Positions 12,113 through 23,724 of a DNA stretch of 64,000 nucleotides are shown in pieces; the first letter of the stretch is position 1; every line of letters starts with the position of its first letter. The DNA is from Pigmentibacter sp. JX0631. GTDB lineage: Bacteria; Bdellovibrionota_B; Oligoflexia; Silvanigrellales; Silvanigrellaceae. The notes under the pieces are model-generated. The model was not told the DNA's origin and searched no databases. It saw only the letters and a list, made by a program, of their open reading frames with translations. The stretch covers positions 124,001 to 188,000 of the forward strand of contig NZ_CP123622.1 in NCBI RefSeq assembly GCF_029873255.1, given 5' to 3'. Position numbers and translations under genes: made by a program.

Positions 12113-12868
12113 TCATTTTTTATCTAAATCTGATGTTTCATTTGGAATATTATTCTCAGTCTCATCAATGATAATTGGCTGTGCAAAAGCATTTAGAATT
12201 TGTTCAAACATTTCTAAAAGTTCATCTTTAATTTTTTGAGGATGAACTTCATTTAAATAAATTAATGGATTCGAAGGAGACTCTGAATAACCTGGATAGT
12301 AAAACTCATGAACTGCTAAGCGCATTTTTTTAACTGAATATACCAGTCTATAATTCCAGCAGGATTTTAATTCTGAATAATAATTTTGTTTTTCTTCTAA
12401 AGATAATTCCATAAAGTTATTTGAAAAAAATTCTTTACTGTAAACGACTTGTTTTTTATTTTTAGTATCGTATATAAGAAAGCCTTTTGAATCATCATTT
12501 ATTTCAATTTCCTTAATTAAAAAAAATAAATTAGAACTTTCTTTTTTAATAAATATTTTTGCGTTATCTAATGTTGTATAGTTGAAAACTCTATTTTTAT
12601 TTTTTTGTATTTCAGATAGAGAAGGCTCAATTGAAGAAAAAGATTCTTTGTACCATTTATCTAGCTCATCTTTCGTTGGAAGCATCCCATTTTCAAAACA
12701 AACAACACTATCTATTCCACAATAGGGACATAGTGCAGTTTCATTATTGTCAACGTATTCGGTAATTTCAGAAGTTTCAAACGTTTTTAAACAATAAAAA
12801 CATGAGCATTTCTTATATTTTTCAAGAATATTTCGATTTTTAAAAGATAAATCCCCTTTGAATGACAT
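12113..12868 (-). CDS. zinc-ribbon protein of unknown function
   Basis: A 251-aa protein. Residues about 10-65 carry two paired cysteine motifs, CSCFYC and ALCPYCGID, which would bind zinc. This segment matches a short 'cytoplasmic protein' family known from other Gram-negatives as I remember it. The remaining 180 residues contain WNYRLVYSVKKMRLAVHEFYYPG and have no motif I recognise. There is no signal peptide. It stands alone with its start facing CRISPR array 1. The zinc site is inferred from cysteine spacing. Confidence 0.65.
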   Translation of the reverse strand: MSFKGDLSFKNRNILEKYKKCSCFYCLKTFETSEITEYVDNNETALCPYCGIDSVVCFENGMLPTKDELDKWYKESFSSIEPSLSEIQKNKNRVFNYTTLDNAKIFIKKESSNLFFLIKEIEINDDSKGFLIYDTKNKKQVVYSKEFFSNNFMELSLEEKQNYYSELKSCWNYRLVYSVKKMRLAVHEFYYPGYSESPSNPLIYLNEVHPQKIKDELLEMFEQILNAFAQPIIIDETENNIPNETSDLDKK

Positions 12869-13059
12869 TAGTTAATTCTCTCTCATTTGTTAAATTGTAA
12901 TTATGCTGGAATTAATTAATCCTACTTTTTCTCATCTACTTAATTAGATTAAATCATTTCTGTTAGCTAGTCCTCTTTAATTGGAACACTCATTGCACAT
13001 GTGACAGCATTTTTAGTAATAACAAAACTTTAAAATTTTAAAAGAAGGAATAAAATTTA
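12869..13059. other. non-coding gap before CRISPR array 1
   Basis: AT-rich sequence with no open frame of note. It should hold the promoter of the zinc-ribbon gene (minus strand). The terminator described next and a short AT-rich stretch separate it from the first repeat at 13163. Confidence 0.4.
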
Positions 13060-13099
13060 TAAAAAACAATCTTATGCAAAAAAATTTGCTCATAAGATT
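13060..13099 (-). terminator. intrinsic terminator for the array 1 pre-crRNA
   Basis: Read on the minus strand, AATCTTAT (13099-13092) pairs with ATAAGATT, with an inner GCAAA/TTTGC stem, and is followed by G and six T residues (13066-13061). This is a good Rho-independent terminator for a transcript that crosses array 1 from right to left. It has no role for plus-strand transcription of the array. Confidence 0.7.
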
Positions 13100-13162
13100 A
13101 TAGTTTTTATTATAAAAAATAACTAAATAATCCTTTAAAGTCAAAGCATTATATCAACATCT

Positions 13163-14890
13163 AGCGTATCAAAGCGTTTATTCTAGGCAAGTCCTAGCCC
13201 AGATATGACTGTTTTGTATATTAAAGAAAGCGTATCAAAGCGTTTATTCTAGGCAAGTCCTAGCCGAATGAGTGGCGAGATCGCAAAGAGATCGAGCGTA
13301 TCAAAGCGTTTATTCTAGGCAAGTCCTAGCAAAGCCATAGGTTATAAGGGATTCTTTTTAGCGTATCAAAGCGTTTATTCTAGGCAAGTCCTAGCTGACC
13401 TGTTTCAGTGTTCACCATCATTATAAGCGTATCAAAGCGTTTATTCTAGGCAAGTCCTAGCCTTGCCGACGGAACGATCAGGTACGGCCATTAGCGTATC
13501 AAAGCGTTTATTCTAGGCAAGTCCTAGCTCAATTTCAACACTGTCAAGAATTTTGTCTAGCGTATCAAAGCGTTTATTCTAGGCAAGTCCTAGCTAGTTT
13601 CTTTGTACTTTTCAAGTAATTCTGAGCGTATCAAAGCGTTTATTCTAGGCAAGTCCTAGCCACTATATCAACAGAGCCCAATGTATTAATAGCGTATCAA
13701 AGCGTTTATTCTAGGCAAGTCCTAGCAGCGATTCCAGTTTATTAAAACCAGAAAAAAGCGTATCAAAGTGTTTATTCTAGGCAAGTCCTAGCTAAACTAT
13801 CGCAATTCCACCCGCTTTGTTCAGCGTATCAAAGCGTTTATTCTAGGCAAGTCCTAGCTTGAGAGCAATTGGAAAAGAGAAAGCGGAAAGCGTATCAAAG
13901 CGTTTATTCTAGGCAAGTCCTAGCGAGAAGACAGACCCAATCTACTCACTAAATAGCGTATCAAAGCGTTTATTCTAGGCAAGTCCTAGCAAAGGCTGGA
14001 GACTGAAAATAAAGATTTAAAGCGTATCAAAGCGTTTATTCTAGGCAAGTCCTAGCAGAAGCCCTGGCATTAATGCAGACTGTAACAGCGTATCAAAGCG
14101 TTTATTCTAGGCAAGTCCTAGCTCTTCACATTCATGTGAGATATTTACTGTTAGCGTATCAAAGCGTTTATTCTAGGCAAGTCCCAGCTTTATTAATGAT
14201 TCATTTTTTGTTGCCCATAGCGTATCAAAGCGTTTATTCTAGGCAAGTCCCAGCTATAGCTTGCAAAGATGAAGATGAGCAAGGAGCGTATCAAAGCGTT
14301 TATTCTAGGCAAGTCCCAGCTACGGAGGAATATGAGTGAATCCTTGCTGAAGCGTATCAAAGCGTTTATTCTAGGCAAGTCCCAGCTGCCTCACGTAGGC
14401 AGTAGTAAGGATTGTAAGCGTATCAAAGCGTTTATTCTAGGCAAGTCCCAGCCAAGACGAGAACCATTTTCATAATAAAATTAGCGTATCAAAGGGTTTA
14501 TTCTAGGCAAGTCCCAGCTTCAAATTACTTACAGACACAATTAAAAGCAGCGTATCAAAGCGTTTATTCTAGGCAAGTCCCAGCCAAGACGAGAACCATT
14601 TTCATAATAAAATTAGCGTATCAAAGGGTTTATTCTAGGCAAGTCCCAGCTTCAAATTACTTACAGACACAATTAAAAGCAGCGTATCAAAGCGTTTATT
14701 CTAGGCAAGTCTCAGCAAAAATCTAAAAAAGTAACAAAAAACGGTAAGCGTATCAAAGCGTTTTTAGGCAAGTTCTAGCATAAAACTGTAGCGTATCAAA
14801 TCGTTTATACTAAGCAAGTCACAACATTTATCAAAATAAACCGAAAAAATAGTTAGTGTATAAATGGAATCATTTTGGGCAAACTCCAGC
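13163..14890 (-). CRISPR. CRISPR array 1, type II-C, 24 good plus 3 degenerate repeats
   Basis: Repeats of 36 bp start at 13163, 13229, 13295, 13360, 13426, 13493 and then every 66 bp to 14681. Spacers are 30 bp, with rare 29 or 31. In crRNA sense the repeat begins GCT(A/G)GGACTTGCC and ends TTTGATACGCT. Repeats 1-15 have A at crRNA position 4, repeats 16-23 have G, and repeat 24 has another change. Three decayed copies follow at 14747 (3-bp deletion), 14790 (after only a 10-bp spacer) and 14855. The minus strand is taken as sense because of the tracrRNA anti-repeat, the TAnnnT-type repeat end and the terminator at the left end. Spacer targets are unknown. Confidence 0.98.
14417..14680. repeat. 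tandem duplication of two repeat-spacer units in array 1
   Basis: The 132-bp block 14417-14548 is repeated exactly at 14549-14680. It includes two spacers and the unusual repeat with AAAGGGTTT instead of AAAGCGTTT (14483 and 14615). Because the point variant is duplicated too, this is one duplication event within the array and not two independent spacer captures. Confidence 0.95.
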
Positions 14891-14891
14891 C

Positions 14892-14931
14892 ACTTAAGAC
14901 GCAGTAAGGGTGAGTATTTCTGCGATTAAGT
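14892..14931. other. imperfect hairpin at the decayed end of array 1
   Basis: ACTTAA-GA-CGCAG (14892-14904) can pair with CTGCG-A-TTAAGT (14920-14931). It sits directly after the last degenerate repeat. No U-tract follows on either strand. Its role is unknown; it may be a relic of an old spacer or flank. Confidence 0.4.
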
Positions 14932-15012
14932 AATTCAACTGCAAATGAGAAGAATAATAAACTATTTTAGAATTTAAAGTTAAATTAGAATGAGAGTATT
15001 TATTGGAAATAA

Positions 15013-15108
15013 TAAAAAAAGGAGCCACGAAGGCTCCTAAAGCTGATTAAAGCTGCGGGCATAAACCCTTGCTAAAGCAAGCAAAGAATATCCGCTTTGA
15101 TACGCTTG
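15013..15108 (-). ncRNA. tracrRNA for the type II-C Cas9
   Basis: On the minus strand a 36-nt stretch (15106-15071) aligns without gaps to the entire CRISPR repeat complement, with 27 identities to the array 1 left-end repeat including the first 14 bases. After this anti-repeat come a nexus-like hairpin (GGG/CCC at 15069-15058), a small AGCT/AGCT stem, and an intrinsic terminator hairpin (GGAGCC/GGCTCC, 15037-15021) with seven T residues. The predicted transcript is about 95 nt. It would pair with crRNA repeats to allow RNase III processing and Cas9 loading. It lies between array 1 and cas9, on the strand opposite to cas9. Confidence 0.9.
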
Positions 15109-15114
15109 TTGTTA

Positions 15115-15143
15115 TAGATATTTCTATATTTATAATTTGTCAA
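15115..15143 (-). promoter_or_regulatory. tracrRNA promoter
   Basis: On the minus strand a perfect -35 box TTGACA (15143-15138) is 17 bp from a -10 box TATCTA (15120-15115). The predicted start is about 15108, two bases before the anti-repeat. Position and spacing fit the tracrRNA precisely. Confidence 0.8.
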
Positions 15144-15719
15144 GTAGCAAGTACTAAAAAATTTATTTTAACAGCTAAAATGTAAATTAAACTAAAAACA
15201 ATGTTATTTTTGTGCCGTGAAATAAATTTTTCCAGAAAATTCAATTAATAGTTAAATAATAATTCCAATTCTACTAAGTTTTACCGATAATGTTTTTTAA
15301 AATTACGAAAATTATATATACTTGATAATTTTGTTACATAATTTTCTCCATGCTTCTCTTCCATTTTTAATAAAATATTCTAATTTTAGTATAATTTTAA
15401 AGATAAAAAATTTTATTTAATAAGAATCAATTGCGGACTATATGATAGGAGAAAAAAATAATAATTTTGTTGTAAATATCTATCGTTAAAACATCTAATT
15501 CCATAAAGTGAAGTCATTTAAACTATTTATTCTAAATTTCAAAATTTATTTTTGGTTTGTTTTTGTAAATTATATTTTATTTTGGTTAGTTATTTTAAGC
15601 AAAAAATTTATCAGAATGTATGTTACATAATGCTAAAATTTAATGAAAGGATTTTAGGACCAAATATTGGATATTTTATTTTTTTATTATCAATAAATGA
15701 AATTTAATTAAATAAAGAG
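15144..15719. other. non-coding AT-rich stretch between tracrRNA and cas9 promoters
   Basis: About 575 bp, extremely AT-rich, with no open frame, no CRISPR-like repeat and no convincing hairpin. I see nothing functional here beyond acting as the spacer between two divergent promoters. Confidence 0.5.
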
Positions 15720-15749
15720 TTGACAAATTTTAATGTTTAGAAATAACTT
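15720..15749 (+). promoter_or_regulatory. candidate cas9-cas1-cas2 promoter
   Basis: TTGACA (15720-15725) is followed after 18 bp by TAACTT (15744-15749), a weak -10 box. A start near 15756 would leave a leader of about 95 nt before the cas9 ATG. The -35 is perfect; the -10 is poor, so low basal expression is possible. Confidence 0.5.
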
Positions 15750-15851
15750 ATCGCAATTGTTTATTTTAGCTATGATTTATTATTATAAGTTATTTTAAAT
15801 AAAAAAAATATTATTTTATTACTTAAATGCGATACAAGGAATTATGGAAAT

Positions 15852-18800
15852 ATGAGCAATCTAGAAATAAATGGTCTAATTTTAGGACTTGATTTAGGAA
15901 CCACTAGTATTGGTTGGTCTCTGATAAATGAAGAAGAAAAAAAAATAATTAAAATGGGTGTTAGAATTTTTGATGAAGGAGTAAATAGAGATCCATCAGG
16001 TAAAGAAAGTACCAAAAATGCACAACGAAGAGATGCAAGATCGGCTAGAAGGATGCGTGAAAGAAGATATATGCGCACCCAAAAGTTGTTTAAATTGCTG
16101 CAAAAATATGATCTTCTTCCTAAATATTCAAATGAGCAATTAAAAGAAATAGAAAATGTAACGTATACAAAACAAGCAAAAAAGAAAGAACAAAGAAGAC
16201 TCCAATTATGTTTTAGAAATAAAATAATTGAAAATCTAGACAAAGAATTAATATCAAAATGGGAAAAAATATTACCACATCGTCCAGAGCTTTATAAAAA
16301 ATATTCTAAATCTTTACATCTTATTTTTCCATTTTTTTTGAGAACGATAGCATTAAGCGAAAAACTAGAAAGATATGAATTAGGTAGGGCTATTTTCCAT
16401 TTAAGTCATAGAAGAGGTTTTTTAAGTAATAGGAAATCTGGTAAAGGCAAAGAAGATGGTGATGTATTAAAATCAATAAATAAACTTTTTGATGACATTA
16501 ATATTCATCAATATAGGACTATTGGCGAGCTATTTTCAACATTTGATCCGGAAAAAATTAGAATTAGGAAAAGATATACTTCTAGAATAATGTTTGTTGA
16601 TGAGTTTAATAAAATTATTAATTCTCAAATTGAAAGATTAAATCAAGTAGTTCCAGATGAGATAGGAATTAAGTCTATTTATAAGTCTATTTTTTATCAA
16701 AGGCCATTGAAGCCTGTCAGAAAATTTATTGGATTTTGTTCTTTAGAGAAAAATAAAAGAAGAATGAAGATATCTTTCTTAAATGCACAAGAATTTAGAG
16801 TAAGACAAACGCTAAACAATATTGTAATATTTAATGATTCTCTTGAAAGACGGTTAAGTAAAGAAGAGACAGAAATTTTGTATCAATATCTTCTTGAGAA
16901 CGAAAAACTAAAATTATCTTTAGCCAAAAAAATAATCAGGCTATCACCTAAAGAAAAATTTAAATATGAAGATAATGAAATTAAAGGAAATACAACTTCA
17001 GCTAATATATCAAAAATATATAAAGATTTTTTATCTTTTAATGAAAAAGACAAAGAAAAATTCGTTAACTCATTAATAAGTTTTGATAGTGAAAAGCATC
17101 TAACAACTCATTTGGTAAATAAATGGAATATTAAAGAAGAAATTGCATCAAAATTAGCAGAGATAACTTTTGAAGAAGGGTATTTGTCGTACTCTAGTCG
17201 AGCAGTGAATCGATTACTACCAATGTTAAGAGAAGGTTTAGATCTCCACAACTCGAAATTAGCAGTTGGATATAAAGAAAAATCAAATATTAATATTTTT
17301 AATTTTTTGCCATCTTATGAAACAGTTGATCCATCACTAAGAAACCCAATTGTATCTAGAGCATTATCTGAATTAAGAAAAGTGGTAAATGGCCTAATCA
17401 AAATATATGGAAAACCAAAACAAATTAGAGTAGAACTTGCAAGAGAATTAAAAAAAGGGAAAAAATATCGTGAAAATATATTAAAAGAAAATAAATCAAG
17501 AAGAAGCGATAGAGAAAAAGCTATCGCTGAAATTAATAAATTTAATCCAGCCTTAAAGGTTAGTAATAGAGATATTGAAAAGTTACTTTTATTTAATGAA
17601 TGTGGCAAGCAATGTCCTTATACAGGTAGGTCTATAAGCATGGAAGACTTATTCGGAAGTAATCCTCTATATGATGTGGAACATATCATTCCATTAAGTA
17701 GATGTTTAGATGATTCTTTCTTAAATAAAACTTTATGCTTTCATTATGAAAATCGACACGTGAAAAAAAATAGAACTCCTTATGAATCTTATGGATTAAA
17801 TAATCCGGAAAAATATAATGAAATTTTAAAAAGGGTTGAAAAATTTTCAGGAAAAGGAAAATATAGAAAGCTGGAATTATTCAAAAAGAAAATTTCAACT
17901 TCTGAAGAAGATTTTACAACTCAAATGCTTAATGATACCCGCTATATAACTAAATTAGCAAAAGGATTTTTAGGATTATTATATGGCGGCGAAGTAGATC
18001 CTAATCATATACTTCGAATAAGAGCGAGTACAGGTCAAGTAACATCATATTTAAGAAATATGTGGAAATTGAATTCAATTCTTTCTGAATCAAATTTTAA
18101 ATCTCGGGATGATCATAGACATCATGCAATTGATGCTTTAGTTATTGCTTTAACTACTGAAAATTCAATAAAATTACTAAATATTGCTTCTAAAAATTCT
18201 TATTTAGAAGGGAAAAATAAATTTGGGAAAATAAATCAGGTTTGGGATGATCTTTATGAGCAAACTAATGAACATGTTAGTTGTATTAAAATTTCTTATA
18301 GAGTAGAAAAAAAGATAAATGGTTCACTTCATAAAGAAAGTTTTTATGGGAAAAATAAAGATAAAATTGAAAATACAGAATATTATACAATTCGAAAACC
18401 AATAAATTCGTTATCTAAAAATGAACTCAACAGTATAATAGACCCTTACATTAAAAATGCCGTCATTGAAAAATTAGATTCTAGTGGTACTAGCGATGTA
18501 AGAAAAGCTTTTGATCTGGAAAAAATTGAAACCCTGCCGTACATTGAAGTAAAGCATAATAAGCAAGAAAATAGGCCGTATGCGAAAAATAAAGGTGAAA
18601 AAATATTTATAAAAAGTGTTCGTATAAGAGTTAAATATGTAAATAATTTAGAAATTGGAAAAGGGATACAACAGAGAGCGGTTCAACCAGATGAAAATCA
18701 TCATATTTCCTATTACTTATTTGAAAAGAATAATGGGACACTATGGAAGTCGGAAGTAACTTCTAGATTACAAGCTGTATTAAGAAAACAAAATAATTTA

Positions 18801-19091
18801 CCAGTAATAAACAAAGAGGTTATGAAGGAGCATGGAGGTAAATTTTTATTTTCATTGGTTAAAGGAGATACAATAGAAGTGAGTGAAGGTGATAAAATTA
18901 AATACTGGAATGTAAAATCTATTTTGTCTGATGGACGAATTTATTATTCACCAGTAAACGATGCAAGAACGCAACAAATAAGAGAAGAAAATAATGCATA
19001 CTTGAGAGTTTCAGCAAGATCGTTACAATCATTGAGATGTAGAAAGGTAATTATATCTCCAATTGGAGAAATTTATGAGTGCTCTGAATGA
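15852..19091 (+). CDS. cas9: CRISPR-associated endonuclease Cas9, type II-C
   Basis: A 1079-aa Cas9, the short size typical of II-C. RuvC-I is LGLDLGTTSIGW (D14). The arginine-rich bridge helix is AQRRDARSARRMRERRYMR (57-75). RuvC-II is RVELARE (E528). HNH is YDVEHIIPLS (H611) with downstream NRTPYE, and RuvC-III is HHAIDALVIA (H757, D761). All nuclease residues are present, so it should cut both strands of crRNA-matched DNA. The C-terminal 250 residues would hold the PAM-interacting part; the PAM cannot be read here. The ATG at 15852 overlaps the stop of a three-codon frame (15844-15855) that is closer to the AAGGA site. The 3' end overlaps cas1 by 4 bp. Confidence 0.97.
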   Translation: MSNLEINGLILGLDLGTTSIGWSLINEEEKKIIKMGVRIFDEGVNRDPSGKESTKNAQRRDARSARRMRERRYMRTQKLFKLLQKYDLLPKYSNEQLKEIENVTYTKQAKKKEQRRLQLCFRNKIIENLDKELISKWEKILPHRPELYKKYSKSLHLIFPFFLRTIALSEKLERYELGRAIFHLSHRRGFLSNRKSGKGKEDGDVLKSINKLFDDINIHQYRTIGELFSTFDPEKIRIRKRYTSRIMFVDEFNKIINSQIERLNQVVPDEIGIKSIYKSIFYQRPLKPVRKFIGFCSLEKNKRRMKISFLNAQEFRVRQTLNNIVIFNDSLERRLSKEETEILYQYLLENEKLKLSLAKKIIRLSPKEKFKYEDNEIKGNTTSANISKIYKDFLSFNEKDKEKFVNSLISFDSEKHLTTHLVNKWNIKEEIASKLAEITFEEGYLSYSSRAVNRLLPMLREGLDLHNSKLAVGYKEKSNINIFNFLPSYETVDPSLRNPIVSRALSELRKVVNGLIKIYGKPKQIRVELARELKKGKKYRENILKENKSRRSDREKAIAEINKFNPALKVSNRDIEKLLLFNECGKQCPYTGRSISMEDLFGSNPLYDVEHIIPLSRCLDDSFLNKTLCFHYENRHVKKNRTPYESYGLNNPEKYNEILKRVEKFSGKGKYRKLELFKKKISTSEEDFTTQMLNDTRYITKLAKGFLGLLYGGEVDPNHILRIRASTGQVTSYLRNMWKLNSILSESNFKSRDDHRHHAIDALVIALTTENSIKLLNIASKNSYLEGKNKFGKINQVWDDLYEQTNEHVSCIKISYRVEKKINGSLHKESFYGKNKDKIENTEYYTIRKPINSLSKNELNSIIDPYIKNAVIEKLDSSGTSDVRKAFDLEKIETLPYIEVKHNKQENRPYAKNKGEKIFIKSVRIRVKYVNNLEIGKGIQQRAVQPDENHHISYYLFEKNNGTLWKSEVTSRLQAVLRKQNNLPVINKEVMKEHGGKFLFSLVKGDTIEVSEGDKIKYWNVKSILSDGRIYYSPVNDARTQQIREENNAYLRVSARSLQSLRCRKVIISPIGEIYECSE

Positions 19092-19981
19092 TAAAACGAA
19101 TAATTGATATATCAAGCTTGAATGTTAAATTATCTGTTTCTCACGATTTGCTTGTTATCGAATCTCAAGAAAAGGTAACAGTTCCTTTAACTAATATTGC
19201 GGCATTGATAGTTTCTTCTCCCGCTGTAATCTATACCCATGCAGTGTTAGCAAAATTATCTGAATTTGGTGCAATATTTGTATGTTGTGATAATTATCAT
19301 TTGCCAATAGGTATGCTTCAGCCATTAGTTTCTCATTCAACTCAAACGCAACGTTTTGCAAAACAGATTTTGGCTACTATTCCTTTTAGAAAACAAATAT
19401 GGAAGAAAATTATCACTAGAAAAATTGAGGTGCAAGCCCAATTATTAATTAGAAGAAAAAGAGAAGATTTTGGTTTATTATCATTATCAAAAAATGTGAA
19501 AAGTGGTGATGAAGGAAATTTAGAAGCACAGGCTGCAAAAATTTATTGGAAGCATATTTCTAGCAACATTGATTTTAAAAGAAATATCTACGGTGATAAT
19601 GAAAATATATTACTGAATTATGGTTATGCTATTTTACGTGCAACAATAGCTAGAAACCTTTGTGCCACAGGATTAAATCCTTCTATTGGTATTTTCCATA
19701 AAAGCAAATACAATCCATTTTGTTTGGCTGATGACCTAATGGAACCATTCAGACCTTTAGTTGACAATGAAGTTTTCACAATTGTGGATGAAGGAAAATT
19801 TAATGATAAAATCCTTAATTCAGAAATAAAACATCGGATTATTTCTTTAATGTATAATAAATTTTTATTGAATAAAGAAAGTAGACAATTGCATGATATA
19901 ATTTCCATATCTGCACAGAGTTTGTCTGCGGCATTTCTTACCTCTAAATCAAATTTAGTTCTGCCGAATTTATTGAAGTGA
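19088..19981 (+). CDS. cas1: CRISPR integrase Cas1
   Basis: A 297-aa Cas1 of type II size. Metal ligands are visible: Glu in NLEAQAAKIYW (about residue 146), His in GIFHKSKYNPF, and Asp/Glu in CLADDLMEPFRPLVD. With Cas2 it forms the integrase that inserts new spacers. The ATGA overlap with cas9 indicates translational coupling. No csn2 or cas4 is present, which together with the short Cas9 defines subtype II-C. Confidence 0.97.
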   Translation: MIKRIIDISSLNVKLSVSHDLLVIESQEKVTVPLTNIAALIVSSPAVIYTHAVLAKLSEFGAIFVCCDNYHLPIGMLQPLVSHSTQTQRFAKQILATIPFRKQIWKKIITRKIEVQAQLLIRRKREDFGLLSLSKNVKSGDEGNLEAQAAKIYWKHISSNIDFKRNIYGDNENILLNYGYAILRATIARNLCATGLNPSIGIFHKSKYNPFCLADDLMEPFRPLVDNEVFTIVDEGKFNDKILNSEIKHRIISLMYNKFLLNKESRQLHDIISISAQSLSAAFLTSKSNLVLPNLLK

Positions 19982-20015
19982 AATTAAATTTACAAAATTA
20001 TTTAAGAAAATTCTT

Positions 20016-20357
20016 ATGAAGAAAGTTAGTACACCTGGAGGTTATGCGGCAGTGTGGCTTTTTGCGCTTTTCGACATGCCCAATAACACAAAAAATGAAA
20101 GAAAAGAATATACGAAATTTAGAAAAATTTTGATTTCTTCTGGTTTTAGCATGTTGCAATATTCAGTATATGTAATCTATTTTCAAAGCGAAGATGCGAG
20201 TATTAGTACTCAAAAGCTAATAGAAGCTCGTCTTCCTAGTTGTGGTCAAGTCAGACTCCTTTTAGTTACCGACAAGCAATTTGGAAAACAAAAGGTATTT
20301 TTTGGAAAAAATGAAGCTTTGCCAGAGATTCCATTGCCTCAAATACTACTTTTTTAA
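20016..20357 (+). CDS. cas2: CRISPR adaptation protein Cas2
   Basis: A 113-aa Cas2 with the ferredoxin-like start WLFALFDMPNNT, containing the family aspartate near residue 20. QYSVYVIYF is the dimer-interface strand, and the end is QVRLLLVTDKQF. It is the structural partner of Cas1 in spacer integration. The gene begins 34 bp after cas1 and ends 52 bp before array 2, with which its transcript is convergent. Confidence 0.95.
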   Translation: MKKVSTPGGYAAVWLFALFDMPNNTKNERKEYTKFRKILISSGFSMLQYSVYVIYFQSEDASISTQKLIEARLPSCGQVRLLLVTDKQFGKQKVFFGKNEALPEIPLPQILLF

Positions 20358-20360
20358 AAT

Positions 20361-20407
20361 GTAAAAAACAAACAAAACACTATGATTTTATCATAATACA
20401 TAGTGTT
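20361..20407 (-). terminator. intrinsic terminator for the array 2 pre-crRNA
   Basis: AACACTATG (20376-20384) and CATAGTGTT (20399-20407) form a 9-bp stem. On the minus strand the stem is followed by TTGTTTGTTTTTT (20375-20363). This would end a transcript reading array 2 leftward toward cas2. The hairpin may also serve the convergent cas transcript, but no T-tract follows on the plus strand. Confidence 0.7.
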
Positions 20408-20409
20408 CT

Positions 20410-21276
20410 AGCGTATCAAAGCGTTCATTCTAGGCAAGTCCCAGCATTTGCATATAGTTTGGAACACCAGGAATTAGCGTATCAAAGCGTTCATTCTAGG
20501 CAAGTCCCAGCTTGTCGTCGCCAATTAAAACACCTTCGACAAGCGTATCAAAGCGTTCATTCTAGGCAAGTCCCAGCGTGTTTTTTAACGACTCGCTATA
20601 AGTTTTAAGCGTATCAAAGCGTTCATTCTAGGCAAGTCCCAGCAGACCCTTGCGTATATTGCTGCTTTCATGAAGCGTATCAAAGCGTTCATTCTAGGAA
20701 AGTCCCAGCACAATGGCAATAGAAAGACCTGATGAATTAGCGTATCAAAGCGTTCATTCTAGGCAAGTCCCAGCACGGCTAAAGATCCTAATTCAGTCTT
20801 ATATAGCGTATCAAAGCGTTCATTCTAGGAAAGTCCCAGCAAGCCTCCCTCGTTTAGTGCATTAATCACTAGCGTATCAAAGCGTTCATTATACAACGCA
20901 AAAAAGGAAAAGCGTATCAAAGCGTTCATTCTAGGCAAGTCCCAGCAACTCATGAGGTTTATTACGGATAGGTGTAAGCATATCAAAGCGTTCATTCTAG
21001 GCAAGTCCCAGCAAACTTTGGTTAATAAAAAGAGCAAAGAAAAGCGTATCAAAGCGTTCATTCTAGGCAAGTCCCAGCGGATTTTGTTGTAAAGCAGTCA
21101 TGCAAAATAGCGTATCAAAGCGTTAATTCTAGGCAAGTCCCAGCTCATGCATAAAATTATGAACATCTGAAGACAGCGTATCTAAGCGTTTATTCTGGGC
21201 AAGTCCCAGCTTAAATCTATCAGGAAGAGAAAGTTCATTTAGTGTATAATAATTTTTATTCTGCACAAATTCTTAA
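20410..21276 (-). CRISPR. CRISPR array 2, type II-C, 14 repeats including degenerate ones
   Basis: Repeats of 36 bp start at 20410, 20476, 20542, 20608, 20674, 20739, 20805, 20871, 20911, 20977, 21043, 21109, 21175 and a strongly decayed copy at 21241. Spacers are 29-30 bp. The copies differ from array 1 by one consistent base (GTTCATT instead of GTTTATT on the plus strand). Repeats at 20674 and 20805 carry AGGAAAGTCCC. The repeat at 20871 is cut after 20 bp, giving a 40-bp unit and implying a 26-bp deletion. Variation increases to the right, away from cas2, as in array 1. Sense strand is minus. Confidence 0.97.
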
Positions 21277-21453
21277 TATAAAGTCGTTGTAAGTATTATC
21301 GAAGTAATCATTTTATAATTTTTTTTTCGCTAGTAAATTATATAATTTGCAATCAGAATTTATCAATAAATAATTTTTAAGTAAAAAATGATTCTATAAA
21401 AAAGCTTTGTTAACTTAAATTATAATAGTTTTAATTTATCCTGGAAATTTTCC
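21277..21453. other. non-coding gap after array 2
   Basis: AT-rich flank between the decayed end of array 2 and the antitoxin gene stop. A 5' source of the array 2 transcript would be expected here if the array has an external promoter, but I see no convincing boxes. Confidence 0.35.
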
Positions 21454-21801
21454 TCAATATCTTGAACCAATATGTAGATCAATTTTTAATCCAGTAACTT
21501 CACTAATCTCTGCTATTGTATCTAAAGTAATATTTGAATTCCCTTTAAGAATTTTTGATAACGTTGCTGAACTCATATGTAGTTGTTTTTTAAAATCATT
21601 AAAGCCTAGATGATTTTGTGCCATATATTGTATTAATGCTTTTGATAGAGCTTCAGTCATGTCATTTCTAGCTTTTGATCTTTTTAATGCTCGTTTATGA
21701 ATATCATTTATCTCATCTTCAGAAAATAACTCTTTTTCTAAATCATCTAGTGACTGAAAACTATCAAAATCTTTTTCAGAGAAATTCATTTTTGTTGTCA
21801 T
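21454..21801 (-). CDS. XRE-type antitoxin (HigA-like)
   Basis: About 115 aa from the ATG at 21801, which follows GAGGT inside the end of the toxin gene. The C-terminal two thirds form an XRE helix-turn-helix: HLGFNDFKKQLHMSSATLSKILKGNSNITLDTIAEISEVTGL. The N-terminal third is acidic and probably contacts the toxin. It would bind and neutralise the toxin and repress the shared promoter. Order toxin-then-antitoxin is the HigBA arrangement. The pair sits between the CRISPR locus and the insertion elements. Confidence 0.85.
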   Translation of the reverse strand: MTTKMNFSEKDFDSFQSLDDLEKELFSEDEINDIHKRALKRSKARNDMTEALSKALIQYMAQNHLGFNDFKKQLHMSSATLSKILKGNSNITLDTIAEISEVTGLKIDLHIGSRY

Positions 21802-21802
21802 G

Positions 21803-22138
21803 TTATACCTCATTCTTTAAACGTTTTTTAGCAAGATCAATATCTCTATCTTGGCTTTTTTTGGACCCTGCGTGCACAACTAAGCAAATTATTTGCGCCC
21901 CATTGAATCCAAAATAGATTCTAAACCCAGGCCCAGGGGAGCGTTTGTCTTTGATTTCCCATAACTCGCCCTCTAAATGTTTAAAAACCTTTGGCCTTGA
22001 GAAAGGGCCATCCGTGGCAAGATCTCGAAAGATATCTGCTAGATAGATTTGATCCTCTTTTCTAAGAGATTTCATCCATTTAGCCACTGGTTTTTCACCA
22101 AAACGATTCTGCCAAAACAAAACTTTAAAATTACTCAT
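21803..22138 (-). CDS. RelE/HigB-family toxin (phage Gp49-like)
   Basis: A 111-aa basic protein. FGEKPVAKWMKSL, VFKHLEGELWEIKDKR, FRIYFGFNGAQIICLVVHAG and DRDIDLAKKRL match the RelE/HigB-like 'phage-derived Gp49' family, whose members cut mRNA at the ribosome. The stop codon is one base before the antitoxin ATG, so translation is coupled. Toxic activity is inferred from family; nothing looks broken. Confidence 0.87.
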   Translation of the reverse strand: MSNFKVLFWQNRFGEKPVAKWMKSLRKEDQIYLADIFRDLATDGPFSRPKVFKHLEGELWEIKDKRSPGPGFRIYFGFNGAQIICLVVHAGSKKSQDRDIDLAKKRLKNEV

Positions 22139-22754: not shown

Positions 22755-23628
22755 AAATATTGTGAAGATTGAAGAAATAGCTCCAATTTGTTAGTTAATT
22801 GTTGCTTAAAACAAAGTAACAAAGGAGCTACCAATGGATTGGCAGAACCAACTCATTACCGTTTACCTTACTTCCTGCAAATTTTTTTCTCAACTTTCTC
22901 CCTACATTTTTTTAAAAATAAGTCCTAATTCAAATCCTTCGTTTACTGATGAAGAAACCATCACAATTTACATCTTTGGAATTTTGAATGAACTTAAAAA
23001 TATAAAATCAATTTTTAAATTTACAAAAAATTTCCTTAGTGAATGGTTTCCAAATTTACCTTCTTATGAAGGATTTTTATTTAGACTTAACAATCTGAAT
23101 CATCTTTTTCCTGAACTTTCTAAATTCCTTTTACAGAATAAAAAGTTCAAATTAAATTCAAATACTACTAAACCTTTCGTTCTAATTGACTCTTTACCAA
23201 TTATCTTGGCAAAGGGTTTTAGAGCTCACAAATGTAATACAGCAAAAGAAATTTCTTCAATTGGTTTCTGCTCTTCCAAAAATCTTTTTTATTTTGGATT
23301 GAAACTTCATCTTACTGCTTTATTTAAAAATAAACGCCTTGCTTCCCCGGTATCAATGAAAATAACACGTGCTGCAACACATGATTTAACAGCGGTTAAG
23401 AATGATCTTTTAAATTTAAATCACTCAGAACTATTTGCTGATCGAGCGTACTGCGATCAATTTACTAAACAAAAATTGGCTAAAAAAAATTCTAACTTGC
23501 ATACTCCAATTAAACTTTCAAGAAGTAAAAAAACTCTCTCATACGATGAAAAAGTATATTCAAAATCTGTTAGTTCAATTAGACAATCAATTGAAATCCT
23601 ATTCAACTGGCTAATTGAATCTAGTGGT

Positions 23629-23636
23629 ATTCAAAC
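23629..23636. repeat. 8-bp target duplication of IS66, left copy
   Basis: ATTCAAAC flanks the left end of IS66 and is repeated at 26205-26212. Eight bases is the usual IS66 target duplication. Confidence 0.95.
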
Positions 23637-23724
23637 GTAAATCATCGCACAAGCCCACATTTCAATAAAAATTAAATTTGTTAGATTAAAATAGTCATCA
23701 TAATAGAAGAGAAAGGAGATGATA

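Follow-up and report, generated by a model that had tools for sequence, protein, structure and literature searches.

Two CRISPR arrays in the window, the 64,000-nucleotide stretch of Pigmentibacter sp. JX0631 DNA analysed here, raised the question of which end of each array receives new spacers and how the crRNA precursor ends there. The initial annotation had noted decayed repeats at the right of both arrays and a hairpin with a U-tract at the left of each. It had proposed minus-strand transcription, with the left ends, 3' in the transcript, receiving new spacers (features in Table 1).

Table 1. Features of the CRISPR-Cas9 locus, in window coordinates
Feature	Position	Strand	Remark
Putative intrinsic terminator, array 1 leader (3') end	13060..13102	-	hairpin + U-tract, -11.3; about 61 nt past newest repeat
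AGA directly after last repeat, array 1	13160..13162	-	also at array 2 (20407-20409) and in Spirobacillus leaders
CRISPR array 1	13163..14890	-	24 full repeats + 3 decayed or truncated at right (5')
Decayed/truncated repeats, old (5') end of array 1	14747..14890	-	mismatch counts in text
tracrRNA	15020..15115 (about)	-	full-length anti-repeat, then hairpins and terminator; between array 1 and cas9
cas9, 1079 aa	15852..19091	+	TIGR01865, 615 bits; Pfam HNH_4, RuvC_III
cas1, type II (NMENI) kind	19088..19981	+	TIGR03639, 259 bits
cas2	20016..20357	+	TIGR01573; PADLOC Cas2_II
Putative intrinsic terminator, array 2	20360..20409	-	hairpin + U-tract; 1 nt past newest repeat
CRISPR array 2	20410..21276	-	14 repeats; partly deleted one at 20871; decayed at right (5')
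Decayed repeats, old (5') end of array 2	21175..21276	-	mismatch counts in text
Sigma-70-like promoter, TTGATA-18-TATAAT	21337..21366	-	upstream of oldest repeat of array 2; consensus match only

Organization and subtype of the locus

The Pigmentibacter locus is an ordinary type II-C CRISPR-Cas9 immune system. Its Cas9 contained RuvC and HNH domains, a tracrRNA carried an anti-repeat to the CRISPR repeat, and tracrRNA, cas9, cas1 and cas2 lay between the two arrays, both of which had 36-nt repeats and spacers of about 30 nt (crRNA-strand repeat of array 1, GCTAGGACTTGCCTAGAATAAACGCTTTGATACGCT). The cas genes were cas9, cas1 and cas2, and profile scans of the neighbouring ORFs found neither the csn2 of subtype II-A nor the cas4 of subtype II-B. 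Subtype II-A was rejected because no csn2 was found in these ORFs and because the polarity of acquisition was reversed. As in other II-C systems, the arrays would be read from the strand opposite the cas operon (cas genes plus, crRNAs minus as judged from the tracrRNA and the PAM). The repeat had no other copy in the 3.65-Mb genome and none in seven congeneric genomes.

On the crRNA strand, array 2 was immediately preceded by genes for a HigA-like antitoxin and a RelE/ParE-like toxin (21454-22138, minus strand), and no terminator was found in the 150 nt preceding the array, downstream of these genes. A transposase gene (DDE_Tnp_1_3; 22834-23640, plus strand) adjoined the CRISPR locus.

Transcribed strand of the arrays

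The anti-repeat and the minus-strand repeat formed a duplex of -41.1 kcal/mol, and the tracrRNA ended in a terminator, AGGAGCCTTCGTGGCTCCTTTTTTT, at 15038-15020 on the minus strand; Rfam gave no model match for the tracrRNA. The window repeats aligned with those of other II-C loci, their crRNA strand (minus) ending in the -10-like motif TAnnnT. Recognisable protospacers existed for six spacers, on plasmids AP029161 and AP029162 of P. ruber, in a Mu-like prophage carried by the Spirobacillus genome G003 and in related viral contigs. The PAM of Cas9 is located 3' of the protospacer on the crRNA-orientation strand. In that orientation, five of the six protospacers were followed by N4CC, the CC occupying positions 5 and 6 of the 3' flank (CACTCC, AGCGCC, ATCGCC/AGCACC, TACTCC and AACTCC/AACGCC), and the sixth flank was CTCGTC, without CC. 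At the local CC frequency, five matches among six would arise by chance with a probability of 2.7e-8, for positions picked after inspection. Because the PAM fell 3' of the protospacers in the minus orientation, the strand was settled as far as sequence allows. The tracrRNA with its own terminator, the repeat alignment and the PAM agreed, and they support the earlier proposal that the crRNAs come from the minus strand.

The opposite arrangement would be plus-strand transcription starting in a classic 5' leader on the left, with the hairpins as chance or neighbouring-gene terminators and the decayed repeats as a 3' trailer, as in II-A. Pairing between repeat and anti-repeat was also strong on that strand (-37.1), and the left is the leader end in the sense of acquisition. 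However, a proper tracrRNA terminator was present on the minus strand only, the PAM was 3' of the protospacers in the minus orientation only, and the repeats matched the II-C orientation of relatives. Plus-strand crRNAs were rejected on the PAM and tracrRNA evidence, and this arrangement as a whole is extremely improbable.

The P. ruber plasmids targeted by window spacers were pGTC16762-2 and pGTC16762-3 (AP029161 and AP029162; L178-L180). pGTC16762-2, deposited as a plasmid, carried terminase and baseplate genes, had a relative in IMG/VR and so resembles a phage-plasmid. No credible protospacers were found in the INPHARED phage records, and two more scans of viral contigs with prophage proteins were negative.

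Age order of the arrays

The right end of array 1 contained a truncated copy (about 14747-14778) and repeats with 6 mismatches at 14790 and 13 at 14855; at the right end of array 2, the repeats at 21175 and 21241 had 3 and 14 mismatches, respectively. The left-end repeats of both arrays showed 0-1 differences from the local consensus. Repeat position 33 was T in the 15 leftmost repeats of array 1 and C in all of its older full-length repeats, and it was C in every copy of array 2. The array 2 repeat at 21175 had T at position 17, as in array 1; going left from there, this position was A and then C in the rest. Since new repeats copy the leader-side repeat and the derived states sit at the left, the left is the new end even when decay is left unused. 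The decay gradient and the repeat-variant genealogy together support the right end of both arrays as the oldest, so that the initial annotation held both in placing the decayed repeats there and in the age it gave them.

A 132-bp block of two repeat-spacer units was exactly duplicated in tandem in array 1 (14417-14680), and the spacers at 14453 and 14519 were each present twice; this is an internal duplication and not a fresh acquisition. In array 2, a shortened repeat fused to the next repeat (20871-20910) represented an internal deletion.

Subtype II-C has been reported in Spirobacillus cienkowskii (PMC12321486). Its loci (L016, L017 and L023) resembled the window in the homologous repeat, the decayed 5' repeat and a leader beginning with AGA, and their Cas9 was 42-43% identical to that of the window. 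They had a single array between cas9 and a convergent cas1-cas2, in contrast to the two arrays flanking the cas genes in the window. The initial annotation had named spacer comparison among related strains as a check, and this was made between two Spirobacillus genomes, G007 (L016) and G003 (L017), relatives that share about 42% Cas9 identity with the window and do not belong to its species. With flanks 96-99% identical, the two arrays had exactly one spacer in common (TGTAACGCTCTCCCTTAAAAACCCAATTTG), which adjoined a decayed repeat with 8 mismatches. All other spacers differed, and the variable end adjoined the terminator CCCGTCAATAA...TTATTGACGGGATTTTTTT, 3 nt past the last and newest repeat. 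Because only the spacer at the decayed end was shared, the terminator (3') end is where new spacers come in. The genealogy in the window and the comparison in its relatives both placed acquisition at the 3' end of the transcribed array, as in subtype II-C and as had been proposed for the left ends here.

The decay at the right ends could also reflect relaxed selection on a useless first repeat; it would then not mark age and would be silent on spacer entry. This explanation gains something from the proposal that a mutated extra 5' repeat benefits the II-C cell (PMC12080349), but the age order followed, without any use of decay, from the repeat variants of both arrays and from the Spirobacillus comparison, and we consider this reading very improbable.

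One spacer of L016 (13303-13332) matched its own chromosome (G007:C1:1564406) and G003 at 30 of 30 positions and two congeners at 26-29 of 30. It is probably a tolerated self-matching spacer, because the flank of the target in G003, CGACAT, is without the N4CC PAM.

Comparison with known type II-C systems

Acquisition at the 3' end, promoters within repeats and a decayed 5' repeat are not new in principle and have already been published for type II-C. 3' acquisition has been described in this subtype (PMC4283603, PMC6008519 and PMC8092290; summarized in PMC12638026), and reversed polarity is its published norm (PMC12080349, PMC12638026, PMC4283603, PMC6008519, PMC8092290). The extra 5' repeat of II-C arrays decays, mutations being found in 60% of the extra repeats and 5% of the others (PMC12080349). 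In C. jejuni, each repeat contains a promoter with an extended -10 at the repeat end, and transcripts start at spacer position five (PMC3656092). The C. jejuni system was similar to the window in having only cas9-cas1-cas2 and a tracrRNA (PMC3656092, PMC4283603, PMC12080349), and also in the reported distal 3' acquisition, the mutated extra 5' repeat and, more loosely, the promoter-like 3' end of the repeat. The -10 of the window repeat, TGATACGCT, was a loose, weak match to TGnTAnnnT, and the relatives' TGATATGAT fitted better. The promoter-like site upstream of array 2 matched 11 of 12 consensus positions, the best in the region.

The published terminator of C. jejuni lies upstream of the array, at its 5' end, whereas the window hairpins were at the 3' leader end. 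In Flavobacterium columnare and Riemerella anatipestifer, experiments put new spacers at the leader/cas2 end, and F. columnare arrays are transcribed in the direction of the leader, both as in the window; the available text of these reports describes no leader terminator, and the repeat lengths and PAMs were unlike those of the window (PMC8092290, PMC6008519). A study of II-C insulation against extraneous crRNA found Rho-independent terminators and decayed first repeats at arrays, as here, but it covered the upstream (5') side only, where terminators were unenriched, whereas leader-side (3') hairpins were enriched in the present survey (PMC12080349). The polarity of the locus conforms to known II-C, and it is the junction hairpin that merits further attention.

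Hairpins at the leader ends

On the minus strand, the RNA of 13055-13105 folded with -11.8 kcal/mol (z -3.8, 0 of 200 shuffles as good) and was followed by GUUUUUUAUAA; that of 20355-20410 folded with -12.1 (z -2.7, 4 of 200 shuffles as good) and was followed by UUUUGUUUGUUUUUU. Both left hairpins thus had the form of an intrinsic terminator, a predicted stable hairpin with a U-tract directly after it, and the hairpin of array 2 occupied nearly the whole 52-nt leader between cas2 and the array. Since a generic terminator scan flagged neither of them (3 candidates in the region against 3.6 in shuffles), their identity as terminators is supported by the fold z-scores, by where the hairpins lie and by the relatives. 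The hairpins of both Spirobacillus copies had a clear U-tract on the crRNA strand.

The hairpin and U-tract noted earlier at the left of each array were recovered by this analysis, whereas the statement that they work only on the minus strand went too far for 13060-13099. On the plus strand, this hairpin folded with -8.8 and had TTTTTATT about 4 nt past the stem, appearing as a weak candidate (-7.1) within 160 nt. It may therefore have a weak plus-strand function too and be partly bidirectional. The AGA directly after the last repeat is a candidate leader-proximal integration motif.

Proposed mechanism

It is highly likely that this is a II-C system whose two arrays are read from the minus strand in the direction of left (3') leaders and grow there, with leader hairpins that would end the precursor. 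Cas1-Cas2 would insert each new repeat-spacer unit between the short leader and the newest repeat, and the oldest spacers and the decayed repeats would therefore remain at the 5' end of the precursor. Each repeat would have a promoter-like 3' end, as in the published II-C mechanism, and the leader hairpin with its U-tract would terminate the precursor just past the newest repeat. The hairpin of array 2 would also block the outward promoter of the newest repeat from antisense readout into cas2, cas1 and cas9, and the gene shielded by that of array 1 would be the co-directional one at 12113-12868. A promoter in every II-C repeat would leave the newest one firing out of the array, in many cases into cas2, and a junction terminator would solve that.

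Gene content, strand, age polarity and terminator-like folds were read from the sequence; promoter activity, actual termination and the insulating role are what we infer. On this basis, the reversed II-C polarity is seen in Silvanigrellaceae from genome data only, the strand being given by PAM and tracrRNA and the age by repeat genealogy.

Survey of leader hairpins at Cas9 loci

About 950 genomes were searched for Cas9 loci, which gave 67 arrays oriented by repeat sequence alone, after exclusion of arrays of unclear strand and of the near-duplicate L017. The orientation rule (repeat starting with G and ending in TANNNT) has the promoter idea built in and used neither decay nor terminators. The 5' terminal repeat was mutated in 34 of the 67 arrays and the 3' terminal repeat in none of them. 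Terminators starting at most 12 nt from the array were found at the 3' end on the crRNA strand in 12 arrays; the three other side-and-strand classes contained 0, 0 and 1, and 30 shuffles gave a mean of 0.8 and a maximum of 2. Terminator candidates at 55-67 nt in several loci, probably at the cas2 end, were not counted as junction terminators.

The junction terminator is a lineage-dependent trait. It was absent from arrays with C. jejuni-type GTTTTA repeats (0 of 32 in the Campylobacter/Helicobacter-like group, with a 3'-end terminator in 1 of 32, such groups being named from repeat sequence alone), unlike the window arrays with their putative terminators. The other 35 arrays were compared with convergent gene ends in the same loci, in statistics that treat the loci as independent though they are related. 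A terminator within 12 nt was present at 12 of 35 arrays (34%) vs 4 of 64 gene ends (6%; p 0.0005), a junction hairpin of -8 kcal/mol or better at 28 of 35 (80%) vs 23 of 64 (36%; p 2e-5), and any terminator within 150 nt at 16 of 35 vs 15 of 64 (p 0.02). Over the first 48 nt the fold z-scores were strong, averaging -3.65 in the GTTATA group; over the next 48 the signal was gone.

Part of the hairpin signal may be other than termination, because many hairpins were without a U-tract. The left hairpins could accordingly be leader DNA or RNA elements that serve the integration of spacers, such as a dyad recognised by Cas1-Cas2 or by a host factor, and not terminators. The 28 strong junction hairpins against only 12 with a U-tract fit such a role, as do some very stable leader hairpins that lack one (L101, L112 and L122), and poly(A)/poly(T) stretches in II-C leaders have been suggested to act in integration (PMC8092290). 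However, both window hairpins and both Spirobacillus copies had clear U-tracts on the crRNA strand, the hairpin sequences were not conserved across leaders, and Campylobacter/Helicobacter-like loci were mostly without a hairpin; we regard an integration element as unlikely.

Returning to termination, it is possible, though we hold it only tentatively, that several distant lineages have been selected for a hairpin or terminator 1-12 nt past the newest repeat as part of their II-C leaders, where it tracks the growing end, sets the 3' end of the precursor and silences the outward promoter of the newest repeat. No published description of a terminator or hairpin at the leader junction was found in the open-access literature searched, and a stop-signal hairpin beside the newest repeat appears to be hardly described and to recur in distant bacteria. 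Placing II-C leaders and array ends is hard for orientation tools (PMC12638026), and a fixed junction terminator would help to do so. Very stable hairpins, down to -38 kcal/mol, immediately followed the last repeat in the leaders of L101, L112, L098 and L122, all without a U-tract.
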